Assembly: GCA_021820465.1 (NCBI GenBank)
Contig: JAKADP010000016.1
Span: 1-39,312, forward strand
DNA: 39,312 nt
From: Bacillota bacterium
GTDB taxonomy: Bacteria; Bacillota; Sulfobacillia; Sulfobacillales; JAIMBI01
Direction of reading: 5' to 3'
Part shown: one piece after another, positions 22,719-34,563 of the stretch
Layout of the letters: each line of letters begins with the position of its first letter
Position numbering within the stretch: position 1 is the stretch's first letter
Translations under genes and position numbers: made by a program
Notes under the pieces: model-generated
Told to the model about the DNA's origin: nothing
Seen by the model: only the letters and a program-made list of their open reading frames with translations
Databases searched by the model: none

Positions 22719-23405
22719 ATGTCTTTTCAACATGTGGCGCTGATGCGCTTTCCACACACGCTGACCCCGGGCGATTTGGCGGCGATGGACGACGTGATTC
22801 GGGCGTGGCCCCAGGCGATCGGCGGGATCGAGTCGCTCGCGTGGGGCACCGACGTCAGCGGCCGTGCCCAGGGATGCCAGTTTGGCATCGTGGTGCGATT
22901 TCGCGATGAGGCGGCGGCCCAGGCCTACCAGGACCATCCGCGCCATCAGGCCCTGGTGCACTGGATCCGCGAGCATGCCGGCGAGGTGCAGGCGTTCGAC
23001 TTCCCCATCCTCGACAGGGAGCCGCCACGGGCTGAGGGCCGGGAGGCGGGCGGCGGCGCGGCGGTCGTGGGATGGGGCCCGGTGCTGCTGTTCGCGGAGC
23101 GCTTCGCCGAGTGCCGCGCCTTCTATGAAGGGGGCCTCGGCCTGGTGCCCGCGACAGAGCGCCCCGGCTACGTCGAATATGTGGTCGGGGCGGTGACGCT
23201 GGCGCTCCACGCTACCGATCACCGGCGCGCGGGCCCGGGTCCGGTCGCGCTGCACCTCTACGTCGACGACGTGCACGCCATGGCGACCCAGCTGACGGAC
23301 GCTGGATTTCCCCCACCGGGACCGGTGGCGCAGCAGCCGTGGGGCCGGGAGCTCAGCGTGATGGACCCGGACGGCTTTCAGTTCGACCTGTTGGAGAAGG
23401 CTTAG
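22719..23405 (+). CDS. Dabb (stress-responsive barrel) - VOC domain fusion protein
   Basis: Two-domain protein of 228 residues. Residues 1-97 match the stress-responsive A/B barrel (Dabb) domain: MSFQHVALMRF start, GCQFGIVVRFRDEAAAQAYQDHPRH and the WIREH helix. Residues about 113-226 form a glyoxalase/VOC module: FAECRAFYEGGLGLV, ALHLYVDDVHAMATQL and the closing MDPDGFQFDL. Both modules are dimeric small-molecule-binding folds. The ATG at 22719 has GGGAGGCAGCC upstream. The LigB-like dioxygenase gene follows after 38 bases, suggesting joint action on an aromatic or oxidised compound; the reaction is not identifiable. Confidence 0.85.
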   Translation: MSFQHVALMRFPHTLTPGDLAAMDDVIRAWPQAIGGIESLAWGTDVSGRAQGCQFGIVVRFRDEAAAQAYQDHPRHQALVHWIREHAGEVQAFDFPILDREPPRAEGREAGGGAAVVGWGPVLLFAERFAECRAFYEGGLGLVPATERPGYVEYVVGAVTLALHATDHRRAGPGPVALHLYVDDVHAMATQLTDAGFPPPGPVAQQPWGRELSVMDPDGFQFDLLEKA

Positions 23406-23443
23406 GTGCTGGCCGCAAGGCTGGCCGAGAAGGGGGTCTGGTG

Positions 23444-24274
23444 ATGTCTCTGGTTGTCGGCGCGATTGTGCCGCACGGAGGAGAAGCCATCCCGGCGCTG
23501 GCCGGGGAGCGGCTCGAGTTGTTTCGCCCCACCCGCGAAGGATTGGAAGCGGCGGGGCAGGCGGTCCAGGCCGCCGCACCCGACGTGCTGGTGGTGGTGA
23601 CACCCCACGGCATCCGGGCCGAGGGGCGCCTGGCCCTCTCGTACAGCGAGCGCACCGAAGGGGTCATGGAGCATGGCGGCGCGCGCGTAGTGGCCAACCA
23701 CCCGGTGGATCGCGGGCTGGCCCGTGCGCTGTCCGAGGCGGCGGAGGCGGCCGGGATTCCGACCGCGCTGTTGAGCTACGGCGCCTCGTCCGGGCCCCAC
23801 TCGTGCCTCCCGATGGATTGGGGCGCCCAGGTGCCGCTGCACTTCCTGGCCCCGGCTCCCTCGGGCCGAGAGGCCCCGCGCGTGGTCACGGTGGTGCCGT
23901 CGCGGGCCCTGTCGTTTGAGGCCCTGGCGCAATTTGGCGAGGTGCTCTATGCGGTGGCGGCGGCGCGCCAAGATCGGGTGGCACTCATTGCAAGCTCCGA
24001 CTTGTGCCACGCGCACGACCCCGAGGGCCCCTACGGGTACCACCCAGCGGCCGCCGTGCTGGACGCCCACATCGTGGACCGCGTGAAGGCCGACGATCTG
24101 CCGTCCCTGCTGGAAGTGGATCCGGCGCTGATCGAGCAGGGCAAGCCAGATGGCCTTTGGCAAATTGCCGTCCTCACGGGCGCGCGGCGGCACGTCGCGT
24201 GGCGGTCCACCTTTCTGCAGTATCAGGTGCCCACGTACTTCGGAATGCTCTCGGCCGTATACACCGCGCCCTAA
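23444..24274 (+). CDS. LigB-like class III extradiol dioxygenase family protein
   Basis: Member of the LigB/MEMO superfamily (class III extradiol ring-cleavage dioxygenase, subunit B). In the 276-aa product the likely metal ligands are H11 (PHGG), H55 (TPHG) and E231 (LIEQGKPD). Further conserved histidines occur in SSDLCHAHDP and GYHPAA. The enzymes of this superfamily use non-haem Fe(II) to open catechol-type rings, while MEMO-type members have other roles, so dioxygenase activity is plausible but not proven. The ATG at 23444 has AAGGGGGTC upstream. It is probably co-transcribed with the Dabb-VOC gene. Confidence 0.85.
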   Translation: MSLVVGAIVPHGGEAIPALAGERLELFRPTREGLEAAGQAVQAAAPDVLVVVTPHGIRAEGRLALSYSERTEGVMEHGGARVVANHPVDRGLARALSEAAEAAGIPTALLSYGASSGPHSCLPMDWGAQVPLHFLAPAPSGREAPRVVTVVPSRALSFEALAQFGEVLYAVAAARQDRVALIASSDLCHAHDPEGPYGYHPAAAVLDAHIVDRVKADDLPSLLEVDPALIEQGKPDGLWQIAVLTGARRHVAWRSTFLQYQVPTYFGMLSAVYTAP

Positions 24275-24321: not shown

Positions 24322-24651
24322 TCACGACTCTGGGGGGCGCGGCTTTCTCCACCAATAGTGATGCGTGTCGGCTGCCTGCCGGGCGCGGTCAGCCATGGCC
24401 AGCACGGCCCCCGCAGCAACCGCGCCGGCCATCTGCACGGTTTCTTGGATCTCGTCTTCCGTGGCGCCCAGCTTCTTCGCCCCTGCGAAGTGGGACACCG
24501 CTCACGGCTCGCAGTGGAACGCCAGCACGAGCGCCAGGTGCATCAGCTCTTTGGTCTTGGCATCGAGCGCTCCGGCCTCGTGCGTCTCCCGAAAGTACTG
24601 GTGGTAGCTGTCGTGATGGAACATGTAGCGCGGCGGCTGAATCTCGGGCAT
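24322..24651 (-). CDS. AhpD-like carboxymuconolactone decarboxylase-fold protein, candidate selenoprotein (CxxU)
   Basis: Read from the ATG at 24651 (AGGAGGAGGTG six bases upstream) the frame meets an in-frame TGA at 24504-24502 and continues for 59 further codons to a TGA at 24324-24322. With the internal TGA read as selenocysteine the product has 109 residues, a usual length for this fold. The AhpD active-site spacing E-x11-C-x2-C-x3-H is matched exactly by E35, C47, position 50 (TGA) and H54: HCEP-U-AVSH. The sequence after TGA stays coding-like (GAKKLGATEDEIQETV, typical of the family; G/C-rich third positions). A SECIS-like hairpin follows. The family are thiol peroxidase or disulfide reductase proteins. 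The alternative is a nonsense mutation of a TGC/TGT codon. Confidence 0.85.
24467..24494 (-). promoter_or_regulatory. SECIS-like hairpin downstream of the in-frame TGA
   Basis: On the minus strand CTTCGC (24490-24485) and GCGAAG (24480-24475) form a perfect 6-bp stem with the loop AGGG. The stem is extended by CCCA (24494-24491) pairing with TGGG (24470-24467) across a four-base 3' bulge. The loop begins 17 bases after the TGA and has G at its second position. Both features fall within the known bacterial SECIS model (loop about 16-37 bases downstream, G in the first two loop positions). It is inside the coding region, as bacterial SECIS elements are. Confidence 0.7.
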
Positions 24652-24694
24652 CGGGGCACCTCCTCCTGTGCGGTGAGGCGATTCTCAGGCCCTC

Positions 24695-24723
24695 ACTATA
24701 GCCCCGCGGCGACCCCCTGTCCA
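24695..24723 (-). promoter_or_regulatory. Sigma-A-type promoter of the AhpD-like gene
   Basis: Minus strand: -35 TGGACA (24723-24718), spacer of exactly 17 bases, -10 TATAGT (24700-24695). Each hexamer differs from consensus at one position. Transcription would start near 24688, giving a leader of under 40 bases to the ATG at 24651. This is the best housekeeping promoter I see in the window and shows that the gene is separately transcribed and not a relic. Confidence 0.7.
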
Positions 24724-24908: not shown

Positions 24909-26810
24909 TCATCGGGCCAACAGCGTCCCCACATATTGGAGGATGGCGTTGGCGCACTCGGGACAATACCCGTGCTCGCTCATCAAACGGGCGGCCACAT
25001 CGTTCAGCTTCTTCAGCTGCTCCTGGTCCGGAGTCTTGGTGGACGTGGTGATTTTCACCACGTTCTTCAAGTCGCTGAACAGCTTGTTTTCGATAGCCTC
25101 CCGAAGCCCCGCATGACAGGTGTAGTCAAACGATTGCCCGCGCCGCGCCAGTGACGAGATGCGAATCAAAATTTCCTCCCGAAAGGCGCGCTTGGCATTT
25201 TCTGTGACGCCGATCTGCTCTTCGATGCTGCGCATGAGCTTCTCGTCCGCGTCAAGCTCCTCACCTGTCAAGGGGTCCGACAGCTTTGTTTTGTTGACGG
25301 ACGCCTCGATGTTGTCCAGGTAGTTGTTCAGCAGCGACCGGGCTGACGCCTCGAAGGAGTACACGAACGCCTTCTGCACTTCGATTTTGGCCATCTCGTC
25401 GTATTCGCGGCGCGTCTCGTAGATGAGGTTCAAGAGGCGCTCTTTTTCGTCCCGAGAGAACCCGGTGTGCTGCTCCAGCCCGTCCTTGAGCGCGCGCAGC
25501 GCATCGATCGGGTTGATGCAGCGCACCCCGGGGCGGACCAGCGCCGTCGACAGCCGGTTGATAATATAGCGTGGCGAGATTCCAGCCATGCCCTCATCCG
25601 GATGTTCCTCACGCAGGTCCTTCACGTCCTTGGCGGTAAACCCCTCCACCGCCATGCCGTCGTACAGCTTCAACTTCTTCACCAAACTCAATCCCTGGCG
25701 CTTGGACTCCTTCAGGCGCGACAGCACGGCAAACATGCTGGCCACCCGAAGCGTGTGCGGTGCCAAGTGCACTCCGTCGAGCCCTGACTCGCGAATCAGC
25801 TTGTCGTGAATGCGCTCCTCGTCGGCCACCCTCAGGTTGTAGGGCACCCGAATCAAAATCATGCGATCCCGCAGGGCCTCGTTCTTGTCATTTTCGACAA
25901 AGCGCTGGTACTCGGCCTCGTTGGTGTGGCTGACGATCACCTCGTCCGCATAAATCAGCGAGAAGCGTCCCGTCTTGATGCTCTGCTCCTGACTTAGAGT
26001 CAGCAGGCCATAGAGAAACTTCTCGTCGCTCTTCAGCAGCTCGATGAACTCCATGAGGCCCCGGTTGGCGATGTTGAGCTCGCCGTCGAAGCGGTACGCG
26101 CGCGGGTCCGACTCGCTCCCGTACTCGCCGACCGTCGCCAGATCGATGCTGCCGGTCAGCTCGGCGATGTCCTGGGACTTCGGGTCACTGGGCGCAAAGG
26201 TGCCAATGCCCACGCGATGCTTTTCATCCAAGGCCAAGCGCTCCACGGGCACGTGGTCAATGTCGCCGCGCCACTCGGTTTCCAGGCGCTGCTGGCACAC
26301 TGGACACAGGTCGCCCTCGATGTAGAGGCCGTATTCGCTGGCCAGCTCCGGCCGCAGGGGCCCGGGGATCAGGTGCAGCGGCTCTTCGTGCATGGGGCAC
26401 CCGGCAATCGCATACAGCGCGCCGGATGGCGTGCGGGAATACGCCTCGAGGCCGCGCTTCAAGAGAGTCACCAGCGTTGACTTGCCGCCCCCGACCGGGC
26501 CCATCAGGAGCAGGATCCGCTTACGCACTTCCAGGCGGCGCGCAGCCGAGTGAAAATAGTCTACCAGCTGGCTCAACGTTCGCTCTAGGCCAAACAAATC
26601 GTCAGCGAAGAACAGGTAGCGCGGCCCCTCCGGCCCCTCTTCCACGCCCGCATCAGCGATGAGATCGTACACCCGAGCGTGCGAGAGGCGCGCTAGGCGC
26701 GGATTCTCGCGCACGCGGTCAAAATATTCCCAGAATGTGCCGGTCCAGCGCAGTTCGGCCTCCTGGGCCCGCCACCTCCGCACTCGTTCCTGCAGCGCTG
26801 ACGCATCCAT
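24909..26810 (-). CDS. prkA: PrkA serine protein kinase / AAA+ protein
   Basis: PrkA family protein (YeaG in enterobacteria), an AAA+ ATPase with a C-terminal PrkA kinase-like region, tied to sporulation in Bacillus and to starvation response elsewhere. The 633-aa length is standard. Walker A GPVGGGKS is at 104-111; a zinc-like CPVC is at 169-172; FAPSDPKSQDIAELTGS and NIANRGLMEFIELLKSDEKFL are near-invariant in the family; the C-terminus carries a second CPEC pair. The ATG at 26810 has GGAGGGAG upstream. In many genomes prkA is clustered with yhbH and spoVR; here those two lie about 9 kb away on the same strand. Confidence 0.96.
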   Translation of the reverse strand: MDASALQERVRRWRAQEAELRWTGTFWEYFDRVRENPRLARLSHARVYDLIADAGVEEGPEGPRYLFFADDLFGLERTLSQLVDYFHSAARRLEVRKRILLLMGPVGGGKSTLVTLLKRGLEAYSRTPSGALYAIAGCPMHEEPLHLIPGPLRPELASEYGLYIEGDLCPVCQQRLETEWRGDIDHVPVERLALDEKHRVGIGTFAPSDPKSQDIAELTGSIDLATVGEYGSESDPRAYRFDGELNIANRGLMEFIELLKSDEKFLYGLLTLSQEQSIKTGRFSLIYADEVIVSHTNEAEYQRFVENDKNEALRDRMILIRVPYNLRVADEERIHDKLIRESGLDGVHLAPHTLRVASMFAVLSRLKESKRQGLSLVKKLKLYDGMAVEGFTAKDVKDLREEHPDEGMAGISPRYIINRLSTALVRPGVRCINPIDALRALKDGLEQHTGFSRDEKERLLNLIYETRREYDEMAKIEVQKAFVYSFEASARSLLNNYLDNIEASVNKTKLSDPLTGEELDADEKLMRSIEEQIGVTENAKRAFREEILIRISSLARRGQSFDYTCHAGLREAIENKLFSDLKNVVKITTSTKTPDQEQLKKLNDVAARLMSEHGYCPECANAILQYVGTLLAR

Positions 26811-30763: not shown

Positions 30764-33700
30764 TTAGTCAGGAACGGCGGACAGATCAGGAAGGTCCGCC
30801 AGCGTCAGCAGGCTGTACGCTTCGGGCGATCGCTCGGCGGCGGGCAGCGCCATGACCCGCAGCGCCATCTGCCCCTGAATTTTCTCGTATACGTTGCGCA
30901 CAAAGCGCCCGTTGGAGAAGTGCTGCGGCCCGGACTGCAATCGCTGTTGAAACTGCCGCCGGAGCTCCGCCTGGAGTTCCTCCGTGAGACCCAGCTGGGC
31001 ATGCCCCGCCAAGTCCCGAAAGATGTGCAGCAGCTCGTCGATGCTGTAGTCGGCAAAGGTCCAGCTTTGGGCGAACCGCGACGCCAGGCCAGGGTTGGCG
31101 TCCAGAAACGTCCGCATGTTGTCGGGATAGCCCGCGCAGATGACCACAAACGCGTCGCGCAGATCCTCCATGGCCTTCAGCAAGGTGTCGACGGCCTCCC
31201 GACCGAAGTCTTGCCCCCCGCCGCCCGTGAGAGCGTAAGCCTCGTCGATGAACAGCACCCCGCCCTGCGCCTCATCGATGGCGCGCTGCGTCTTTAAGGC
31301 CGTCTGGCCGATATACCCCGCGACTAGGCGCCCGCGGTCCACCTCCACCACATGACCCCGCTCCAGCACGCCTAAGCTTTTGAAGACCCTCCCCATCAGG
31401 CGCGCGACCGTCGTTTTGCCAGTCCCCGGGTTGCCGAGAAACACCAAGTGATAGCTGGCCCGAGAGAGATTCGGCAGGTGAAGCGCCCGCCGCTGCTGCT
31501 GGTATTCGACCAGCGCGGCCATCTGCTTGACCGCCTCCTTCACGGCGGCCAAGCCCACCAACCGCTCCAAGTCGGCCATGATGACGGACAGGGGTTCCGC
31601 CTCTTGCACACCGCTCACCAGCCGGACCATGGGCTTGACGTCCTCCAAGCTCACCTGCATCAGCGCCTCGCGGGTGCGCTCGGCGTCGGGCAAGCGCGCG
31701 AGGCGCCTGGCCTGCTGGACGGCCACCTGCTCCACCCAGGTTCGCACCAGGCGCGCATTGGCGAACGCATTGTCGCGCCGCGCGTACAAGGCTTGAAACT
31801 CTTCCGCCACGAGTCCGCGAGCCTCCGGGTCTACCCGCAGGCTTGCTGCGACCGCCGCCCGGTCAAAAATCTGCATCAGCTCGTCCGGGGTGTAATCTTC
31901 AAAGGCAAAGGTATACCCAAACCGGTTCCGCAGTCCCGGGTTGGCATTCAGAAAATCCAGCATTTGGTCTGCATACCCGGCGGCAATCACCACAAATTCG
32001 TTACGATGGTCCTCCATCGCCTTCAGCAGGCCGTCAATGGCTTCGCGGCCAAAGTCTTGGCCCGGGCTGGCGTGGGGCATCAGCGCATAGGCCTCATCGA
32101 CAAACAGCACGCCCCCCATCGCGCGGGCGATGGCCGCCTGCGTCTTTTGGGCTGTCTCGCCAATGTACTGGCCCACGAGCTGCGAGCGATCGACCTCCAC
32201 CACGTGGCCCTGAGGCAAGACGCCCAACGCGCGGAAGATGCCGCCCATGAGGCGGGCGACGGTGGTCTTGCCCGTTCCGGGCCGTCCCAAAAACAACGCA
32301 TGCAGCGTAGGCAGCGCGGTATCGCCCAACTTCAGCTGCTGCCGCTCAGCCGAAATCTTCAGCAAGGCGGCTAAGTCCCGCACCGCGTCCTTTACCTGCA
32401 CCAGCCCCACCAGCGAATCCAATTCGCCGAGAGCAGCCTCCAGCCCCACCCCGCCGCCCTCGGCCGGTTGGACACCCTGCGCGGTAATGAAGTTCCCCTC
32501 GGCTTGCACAAACGAGCCGCGAGCCACGTTCAGCACCGGCTCTTGATGGGCGCCCCTGACGATGCACCGGGTAACCGTGCCCACCGACTCGGCGTCGGCT
32601 AGGATGGCCGAACCTCCGTTGCCATCCATGACGCACGCCGTCATGGTCACGTCGGAGAGCGCTTCAATCCAAATCCCATGGCTCTTGGATCCCTGAATCG
32701 TGGTTTCCGCAAGCACGCCGAAGGACCGACCTGCCAGCGCCATCCCCATCGCACCACTCTGGTCAATCGTACAGCGGGTCAGCTGCACGTGGGCCCCGTG
32801 ATCGGCGGCGACCGCGGGGTGGCCCTCGACGCTGGGGCCTAGCCGGCAGCCTTCTAGCGTGGCGGTGCCTCCGTCGGCAAACACGGCGTTCTGGAAGCCG
32901 GAGGCTTCCAAGCGCTGCGCCGACACGGTCGCGGATTCCGCCACGAAAATTCCCACCCCGCGTGTCCCCCGAACCGACGCGCCGCTGAGGGTGATGCTGG
33001 CCTGGCCCCTGGCTTGCAGGGCGCCCGCGCTCACGTCCACCACGATGGTGCCGCCGTCCACCCGAAGTTGGGCCGTGTCCGCCACGCTGAAAAAGAAGCC
33101 GGCCGAGGCGTCTGGGTTCCCTCCCTCCAGCGTACAGTGGGCCAGGCTGGCGCGACTTTGCTGGTAAGCCAGCACCCCGGTTCCCTTCTGTGAGTGCATC
33201 TCCGCTCCGTCCGCGGCAAATTGGGCGGCGCCCGCGATGCTCACCAAGGCCTGCGAGCCGGCGCTGCTGGCCAGGCGGCCGCTGGACATCGACACGTCTC
33301 CCTGCTCAGTGGCCCAGATGACTCCGGCCTCGGCGGCGGTCAGCGTGCTGTCGCGAATTTGAGCGACGGCGGAGCCGGTGGCGCTCAGCACGGGGTAGGA
33401 CTGACTGTCCGACGTCAGTTGGCTGGAGGTGATGGCGGCGCGCGCCCCGTGCAGGAGGTTCACGGCGTTGCTTCCCGCGGAGTGAATCTGCGCGTCCACC
33501 AGGGTGACCGTCGCCCGGTCACGCACATACAGCGCGGGAGACGCCCCTGACCGCACGGTCACCACGCAAGATGTCAGCGACACGGCTGCGTCACCGTCGC
33601 AGAACAGGGCGTTGGACTGCGCGGCCGCGACCTCACAGCCCGTCAGCACCGTCGTCGACCGGCCGCGAGCCCATATCGCGGCCGTTTGCTCTGCCGAAGT

Positions 33701-34198
33701 GACCAGGGTGCACCCGTCAAAATTGCAGGAAGCCTGGCCGTCCGTCTGGAGCGCGTTGGCGGTGGCTCCATCGATACGGCTGGCGGTGGCTTCGACCCGG
33801 CCGCCGTCGGCGACCCACAGCGCCGTGGGAGCGCCGGGAGCACCGATGATACTGGTGTGGTCCAGCGTGAGCGTGCCTCCCACGCCAGCGGCGACGGGAG
33901 TGGACCCGGCGTGTGCGCGAATCGTGCAGCGCTGCACCGTCGCCGACGCTTGGGCCGCGACGGTCAAGCCTCCCTCCCACGCCAAATCCACCAACACCGC
34001 CGAGGCCGCCCTCACCGCGAACTGGGCCGCCAACACGACCCCGGGCTCCGCACGAATCACTACGGGGCGGCGAATGGCCACGTCGCCAGCGTCATAGGTC
34101 CCTGCCGTGAGGAGCACTTCCGTCACGTTCGGCCGCATGAGAGCGTCCTGCAAGGTTTTGGTGGGATAGCGCAACCCCCGGCCCACCTTGATTTGCAC
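30764..34198 (-). CDS. Beta-helix protein fused to two CbbX/SpoVK-type AAA+ domains
   Basis: Very large protein (1144 aa). Residues about 1-580 are a right-handed parallel beta-helix: many 20-24-residue repeats of the kind GxATVTLxxCxI, opening with the pectin-lyase-like YPTKTLQDALM. Two AAA+ modules of the CbbX/SpoVK type follow. The first has Walker A GRPGTGKT (about 636-643) and Walker B GGVLFVDEAYAL; the second has GNPGTGKT (about 920-927) and GGVLFIDEAYAL. Both have the QDFGREA segment and sensor motifs, so both should hydrolyse ATP. No signal peptide or membrane helix is present, so the helix is cytoplasmic. The GTG at 34198 with AGGCGG upstream is chosen as start; GTG 34258 would add 20 residues. 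It lies between prkA and spoVR-yhbH, convergent with the ABC exporter. Confidence 0.9.
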   Translation of the reverse strand: MQIKVGRGLRYPTKTLQDALMRPNVTEVLLTAGTYDAGDVAIRRPVVIRAEPGVVLAAQFAVRAASAVLVDLAWEGGLTVAAQASATVQRCTIRAHAGSTPVAAGVGGTLTLDHTSIIGAPGAPTALWVADGGRVEATASRIDGATANALQTDGQASCNFDGCTLVTSAEQTAAIWARGRSTTVLTGCEVAAAQSNALFCDGDAAVSLTSCVVTVRSGASPALYVRDRATVTLVDAQIHSAGSNAVNLLHGARAAITSSQLTSDSQSYPVLSATGSAVAQIRDSTLTAAEAGVIWATEQGDVSMSSGRLASSAGSQALVSIAGAAQFAADGAEMHSQKGTGVLAYQQSRASLAHCTLEGGNPDASAGFFFSVADTAQLRVDGGTIVVDVSAGALQARGQASITLSGASVRGTRGVGIFVAESATVSAQRLEASGFQNAVFADGGTATLEGCRLGPSVEGHPAVAADHGAHVQLTRCTIDQSGAMGMALAGRSFGVLAETTIQGSKSHGIWIEALSDVTMTACVMDGNGGSAILADAESVGTVTRCIVRGAHQEPVLNVARGSFVQAEGNFITAQGVQPAEGGGVGLEAALGELDSLVGLVQVKDAVRDLAALLKISAERQQLKLGDTALPTLHALFLGRPGTGKTTVARLMGGIFRALGVLPQGHVVEVDRSQLVGQYIGETAQKTQAAIARAMGGVLFVDEAYALMPHASPGQDFGREAIDGLLKAMEDHRNEFVVIAAGYADQMLDFLNANPGLRNRFGYTFAFEDYTPDELMQIFDRAAVAASLRVDPEARGLVAEEFQALYARRDNAFANARLVRTWVEQVAVQQARRLARLPDAERTREALMQVSLEDVKPMVRLVSGVQEAEPLSVIMADLERLVGLAAVKEAVKQMAALVEYQQQRRALHLPNLSRASYHLVFLGNPGTGKTTVARLMGRVFKSLGVLERGHVVEVDRGRLVAGYIGQTALKTQRAIDEAQGGVLFIDEAYALTGGGGQDFGREAVDTLLKAMEDLRDAFVVICAGYPDNMRTFLDANPGLASRFAQSWTFADYSIDELLHIFRDLAGHAQLGLTEELQAELRRQFQQRLQSGPQHFSNGRFVRNVYEKIQGQMALRVMALPAAERSPEAYSLLTLADLPDLSAVPD

Positions 34199-34563
34199 TG
34201 TGTTTCCGCCTTCCACTCGCCATCGTTGCCCGGCCGCTCCGCCACCAACTGGCACCACCGTGAATCGTCCGTGGTGCTGGGAAGCACGAGGCCGGTCCCC
34301 TCCGTCCCGCCGCCCGCGAGCACGGCGGCTTCGTGACGCTGGGCCCCATGGAGTCGGACTGATCCCGCCGCCGCAGCGACACGCCCGCGAGCAGGATGGG
34401 CATTGATTCGCTGGTGCCGCGCGGTATTCCTTCTGCCACGTCGGGCGGCCGCCGGCCAGGTTGACGTGGCCTCCCCACTCCCTCGCTCTGGCTCAGGCAG
34501 CCGCCCGAGCGTGTTGTGCACGCGATCAATTTCTGTTAGAAGTTGTATGACACGCTCCGCTTG
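34123..34563 (-). pseudogene. Frame-disrupted reading frame upstream of the beta-helix/AAA+ gene
   Basis: Coding-like segments occur here in different frames. One frame starts at ATG 34563 with a good helix (MQAERVIQLLTEIDRVHNTL). Around 34480-34390 the coding signal (third-position G/C) moves to another frame that includes VNLAGGRPTWQKEYR and a CPSC-x4-CRC cysteine cluster. Around 34340-34200 it is strong again in the first frame (GTGLVLPSTTDDSRWCQLV), which runs to a stop at 34123 overlapping the start of the large gene. This suggests a small gene or an N-terminal extension of the large protein broken by compensating single-base changes, or sequence errors. Ribosome binding sites are weak, and it may be non-coding. 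Confidence 0.3.

Follow-up and report, generated by a model that had tools for sequence, protein, structure and literature searches.

A predicted CxxU selenoprotein of the CMD/AhpD-like superfamily in a Bacillota bacterium and its relatives

AhpD-like proteins with selenocysteine (Sec) in a CxxU motif were described in 2005 in a survey of the Sargasso Sea, which reported 27 of them alongside 4 CMD-domain selenoproteins (PMC1088965). The GOS survey found 299 AhpD-like 1 and 70 AhpD-like 2 selenoproteins (PMC2398784), and a review from 2026 lists such selenoproteins under TIGR01926, PF02627, NF041047 and NF041238 (PMC13188914). For the AhpD of M. tuberculosis the catalytic residues are Glu118, Cys130, Cys133 and His137, arranged as E-x11-C-x2-C-x3-H, with Cys130 and Cys133 both catalytic (PMC3141380). 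The protein described here shares this catalytic arrangement with M. tuberculosis AhpD, which is larger and uses Cys only, and its assignment to the already known PF02627 CxxU kind is well supported. The initial annotation of this DNA was right that AhpD-like selenoproteins occur in environmental surveys, but its term "rare class" does not hold for proteins that are long established and abundant there (PMC1088965, PMC2398784, PMC13188914).

The window, that is, the whole stretch of 39,312 nucleotides that was analysed, contains the following features of the gene and its signals.

24322..24651, minus strand: predicted AhpD/CMD-like selenoprotein gene, 109 codons plus terminal TGA (Pfam CMD and NCBIfam ahpD_dom matches, orthologues, purifying selection)
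24651-24649, minus strand: ATG start codon
24511..24513, minus strand: codon for Cys47, the partner of Sec50 in CxxU (invariant in an alignment of 11 orthologues)
24502..24504, minus strand: in-frame TGA, codon 50, predicted to be read as selenocysteine (CEPU, a CxxU motif; TGA in 14 of 14 intact copies, Cys here in distant CMD proteins)
24475..24490, minus strand: predicted SECIS upper hairpin, CUUCGC-AGGG-GCGAAG (fit to the bSECIS model, synonymous freezing, two compensated pairs)
24463..24499, minus strand: predicted extended SECIS stem-loop, lower stem GGUG.CCCA/UGGGCGCC (MFE structure)
24324-24322, minus strand: terminal TGA
24659..24667, minus strand: Shine-Dalgarno sequence AGGAGGAGG, ending 7 nt before the ATG (from the sequence)
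24695..24723, minus strand: sigma-70-like promoter TGGACA-17-TATAGT (consensus scan)

The initial annotation had named an AhpD-like gene with an in-frame TGA, and this is confirmed, with the minus strand now supplied. The signature E-x11-C-x2-(C/U)-x3-H is present with E35, C47, U50 and H54, exactly the positions that had been given, and the TGA replaces the second cysteine. A strong ribosome binding site and a promoter of the gene's own had likewise been claimed; besides the Shine-Dalgarno sequence we find a promoter that agrees with the consensus at 10 of 12 positions, where 0.1 such matches are expected in shuffled sequence, and that lies upstream of the gene on its strand.

With codon 50 read as Cys, the product exceeds the curated cut-offs of both superfamily models, Pfam CMD (PF02627; E 1.4e-13, 51.1 bits against a cut-off of 23) and TIGR00778 ahpD_dom (38.9 bits against 27.8). 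The Pfam match covers residues 23-85 and thus spans the TGA. In the alignment of 11 orthologues C47, position 50 and H54 are invariant and E35 is nearly so. An AlphaFold2 model is all-helical (pLDDT 84) and consistent with the CMD fold, with E35 on one helix and Sec50 and H54 on the next; the best Foldseek matches in the PDB are all CMD/AhpD proteins, RclX (7y4r) first, at modest E-values of about 1e-3. The candidate is the sole CMD-family protein of its genome. One peroxiredoxin with a 1-cysPrx_C domain is encoded elsewhere in the genome, unlinked to the AhpD-like gene.

Together with the comparative evidence and the decoding machinery described below, these data point with very little doubt to a 109-residue AhpD/CMD redox selenoprotein, a CxxU thiol/selenol enzyme whose UGA codon 50 would be decoded as Sec via SelB and a SECIS. 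In the model that we propose, SelB recognises the hairpin just downstream of the UGA and brings the Sec-tRNA-Sec that decodes codon 50. The parts needed for decoding are all present and conserved, and from them we infer that Sec is actually incorporated. The predicted fold of the product is that of a small, all-helical CMD protein, where the CxxU redox pair would consist of Cys47 and Sec50, beside Glu35 and His54, an equivalence taken from the alignment. Judging by its family, it would most likely act as an AhpD-type thiol/selenol peroxidase or disulfide reductase, and a peroxide or a peroxiredoxin-like partner may be reduced through a selenenylsulfide. The TGA does sit at the more C-terminal cysteine, as had been noted, but to call this residue "the reactive thiol" simplifies matters, since both Cys130 and Cys133 are catalytic in the M. 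tuberculosis enzyme (PMC3141380).

Orthologues that are 44-91% identical occur in 13 further genomes, each with one in-frame TGA at the same codon. Among 151 genomes, comprising relatives and the window's own, 12 have a copy interrupted by a single in-frame TGA, which always lies in CEPU; two further orthologues, found in other parts of the phylum, have CEHU instead. The search of 154 genomes of the class returned no TGA orthologue beyond those already found, and an intact Cys orthologue was found neither in these 154 nor in 398 genomes of the phylum. A scan of genome contigs gave just three distant CMD proteins, from a Deltaproteobacteria MAG, Mesorhizobium and Geomonas. Distant CMD proteins have Cys at the Sec position (CPYC, CEGC, CVPC, and likewise in PDB sequences), so that alignment with CMD/AhpD proteins bears out the expectation of Cys or Sec at codon 50, with Cys in distant CMD proteins and TGA in the 13 orthologues. 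Between the window's genome (G000) and G003, dN is 0.013 and dS 0.41 before the TGA, and dN is 0.020 and dS 0.51 after it; in every other pair tested, dN is well below dS on both sides. Because dN is far below dS past the TGA, this segment appears to be translated and constrained.

The bacterial SECIS model calls for a loop of 3-9 nt with a G within its first two positions, a stem of 4-16 bp, a distance of 16-37 nt and an energy of the whole stem-loop below -7.5 kcal/mol (PMC13188914). The hairpin agrees with this model: the 4-nt loop AGGG starts A-G and begins 17 nt after the UGA, the stem has 6 bp, and the energy is -20.2 kcal/mol for the whole stem-loop and -7.0 for the upper hairpin alone. 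Judged from the window sequence alone, such a fit is uninformative, since of the window's 903 TGA triplets, 143 are followed by a hairpin that satisfies the model and is at least as stable, and the z-score of the fold is -1.56; an Rfam scan of the window gave no match. It is therefore the comparative tests alone that decide on the predicted SECIS, and their signal is strong. The loop can be written AGGN, closed by CUUCGC/GCGAAG. Codons +1, +4, +5, +6, +8 and +9 are identical in 10 genomes, whereas the mean pairwise codon identity is 0.40 over 30 other degenerate codons whose amino acid is conserved (permutation p about 1e-5 for the freezing of the hairpin codons in these genomes). The frozen positions comprise the codon adjoining the UGA together with the stem and the first base of the loop; the remaining loop bases belong to codon +7, whose third base varies. 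Among the 14 sequences, in the three divergent copies L029, L040 and L041, stem pairs have changed from U-A to C-G and from C-G to U-A with pairing kept, although these two compensated pairs, coming from divergent copies, may represent few evolutionary events. The lower stem of the extended structure is variable among orthologues, and its pairs are not individually conserved.

The window's genome (2.88 Mb in 165 contigs, 96% complete, estimated contamination 3.35%) encodes the apparatus for selenocysteine, although its split into many contigs and its contamination call for some caution. The initial annotation had made its reading depend on selB and tRNA-Sec, and both are found, as are selA and selD: profile searches give 338.9 bits for SelB, 507.9 for SelA and 351.2 for SelD, and tRNA-Sec scores 67.8 bits, over the Rfam cut-off, with ARAGORN also calling a tRNA-SeC (tca). 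SelB is over its cut-off in all 14 genomes with a TGA-bearing orthologue, and tRNA-Sec reaches at least 59.9 bits in all 12 of these genomes that were scanned. The selD gene (G000:C127:17158-18081, L016) has an in-frame TGA in SGUGCK and is otherwise open, giving the genome a second apparent Sec codon, at that enzyme's usual Sec/Cys position; SelD is thus a selenoprotein candidate itself. For the organism and its relatives, decoding of UGA as selenocysteine is very probable, as is the use of this residue in a small protein of peroxidase-like type.

Could the TGA instead be a nonsense mutation that struck the catalytic cysteine by chance and left a young pseudogene? The genus offers some grounds for asking. 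In the congener G001, the copy (L028/L043, G001:C122 near 39650) has a 2-bp deletion and substitutions exactly at the TGA, which shift the frame, and farther on the protein is altered radically (E to G, L to S, R to P), while the genome retains SelB and tRNA-Sec; these downstream changes resemble decay, or an assembly error may be responsible. Another congener, G002, is without the gene. The gene is therefore dispensable, but its occasional loss or breakage does not count against a Sec reading in other genomes. Decayed relatives had been named in advance as a sign against a selenoprotein, and G001 alone provides one, the other 13 orthologues being open save for the single TGA. A pseudogene would also have to account for the recurrence of this TGA in 13 other genomes, which span families of the class and phylum, for a dN that stays far below dS past the codon, for a conserved SECIS and for a full set of Sec machinery. 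We therefore reject a nonsense mutation or decayed gene, to which we attach only a very low probability, on the conserved TGA and the low dN; the initial annotation's remark that a random nonsense mutation would not be expected at this residue is borne out by the same evidence together with the synonymous conservation of the hairpin. Codon 50 is almost certainly a selenocysteine codon, as predicted from these comparisons.

A milder version, in which a real selenoprotein gene is decaying or little used in the genus, draws on the same frameshift in G001 and the same absence from G002. It is at odds with the intact copies of G000 and G003, whose compared codons show 3 nonsynonymous against 20 synonymous differences, and we consider it unlikely. 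That the UGA is read by other means than Sec insertion, either because the codon is reassigned or by stop-codon readthrough involving a near-cognate tRNA, is highly improbable: the gene's own stop codon is TGA, past which no conservation is seen, the genome has Sec machinery, and the internal TGA coincides with the Cys position and has a conserved hairpin behind it.

With the decoding of UGA as Sec as the preferred reading, the place of the protein among known selenoproteins can be considered. It shares with the CMD-like (PF02627) and AhpD-like selenoproteins of the surveys the domain family, a CxxU with C-terminal Sec and a downstream bacterial SECIS, whereas the CEPUAVSHFAGAK core and the HYWWRPPR tail mark a specific subfamily. 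Over the AhpD domain, the highest NCBIfam scores, 57.2 and 44 bits, come from the models of the ArsM/AhpD selenoproteins (NF041537) and MduS (NF045649); both are listed with a CxxU motif, as here, but they are fusions with a methyltransferase domain, which is absent here, and with cut-offs of 510 and 380 both scores fall far short. The GSU3128 family (seleno)protein NF041047, a distant AhpD homologue, is likewise a small CxxU CMD-type protein, and the score of 41.5 bits against its equivalog cut-off of 110 places our protein outside that family as far as this model goes. TIGR00777 ahpD is reached, weakly, in just 2 of 11 orthologues. No NCBIfam selenoprotein model thus scores the protein near its cut-off, the nearest being the AhpD domain of NF041537, and standard annotation is for this reason likely to truncate or miss the gene. 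Tentatively, and at slightly less than even confidence, we suggest a distinct, apparently Sec-only CMD/AhpD-like subfamily, with the CEPU core and mostly the HYWWRPPR tail; the genomes searched yielded no intact Cys orthologue of it, and annotation would routinely miss it because it falls below these cut-offs. The orthologue set, with its clean bacterial SECIS, synonymous-site conservation and compensated pairs, should be useful for building an annotation model.

The gene neighbourhood, in genomes of the genus and of the order, allows no function to be deduced for the AhpD-like gene. In the window it is flanked by a convergent gene for a LigB-type dioxygenase-family protein (23339-24274, plus strand) and by a gene for a PrkA serine kinase (24909-26810, minus strand), an order that is apparently kept within the genus only. 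Genes of the PrkA and SpoVK types in the window suggest a lineage of Bacillota resembling spore-formers. In at least four genomes of the order, though not in the window, a gene for a HAD-family hydrolase follows the AhpD selenoprotein gene on the same strand (L045 7444-8304, L049 6219-6860 and L046 7272-7628, where three carry the Pfam match, and L026 406-1077, recognised by similarity). Further along the window (30764-34258, minus strand) lies the gene for a protein of 1164 aa that joins a right-handed beta-helix region to two AAA domains of the SpoVK/CbbX type, an unusual combination.
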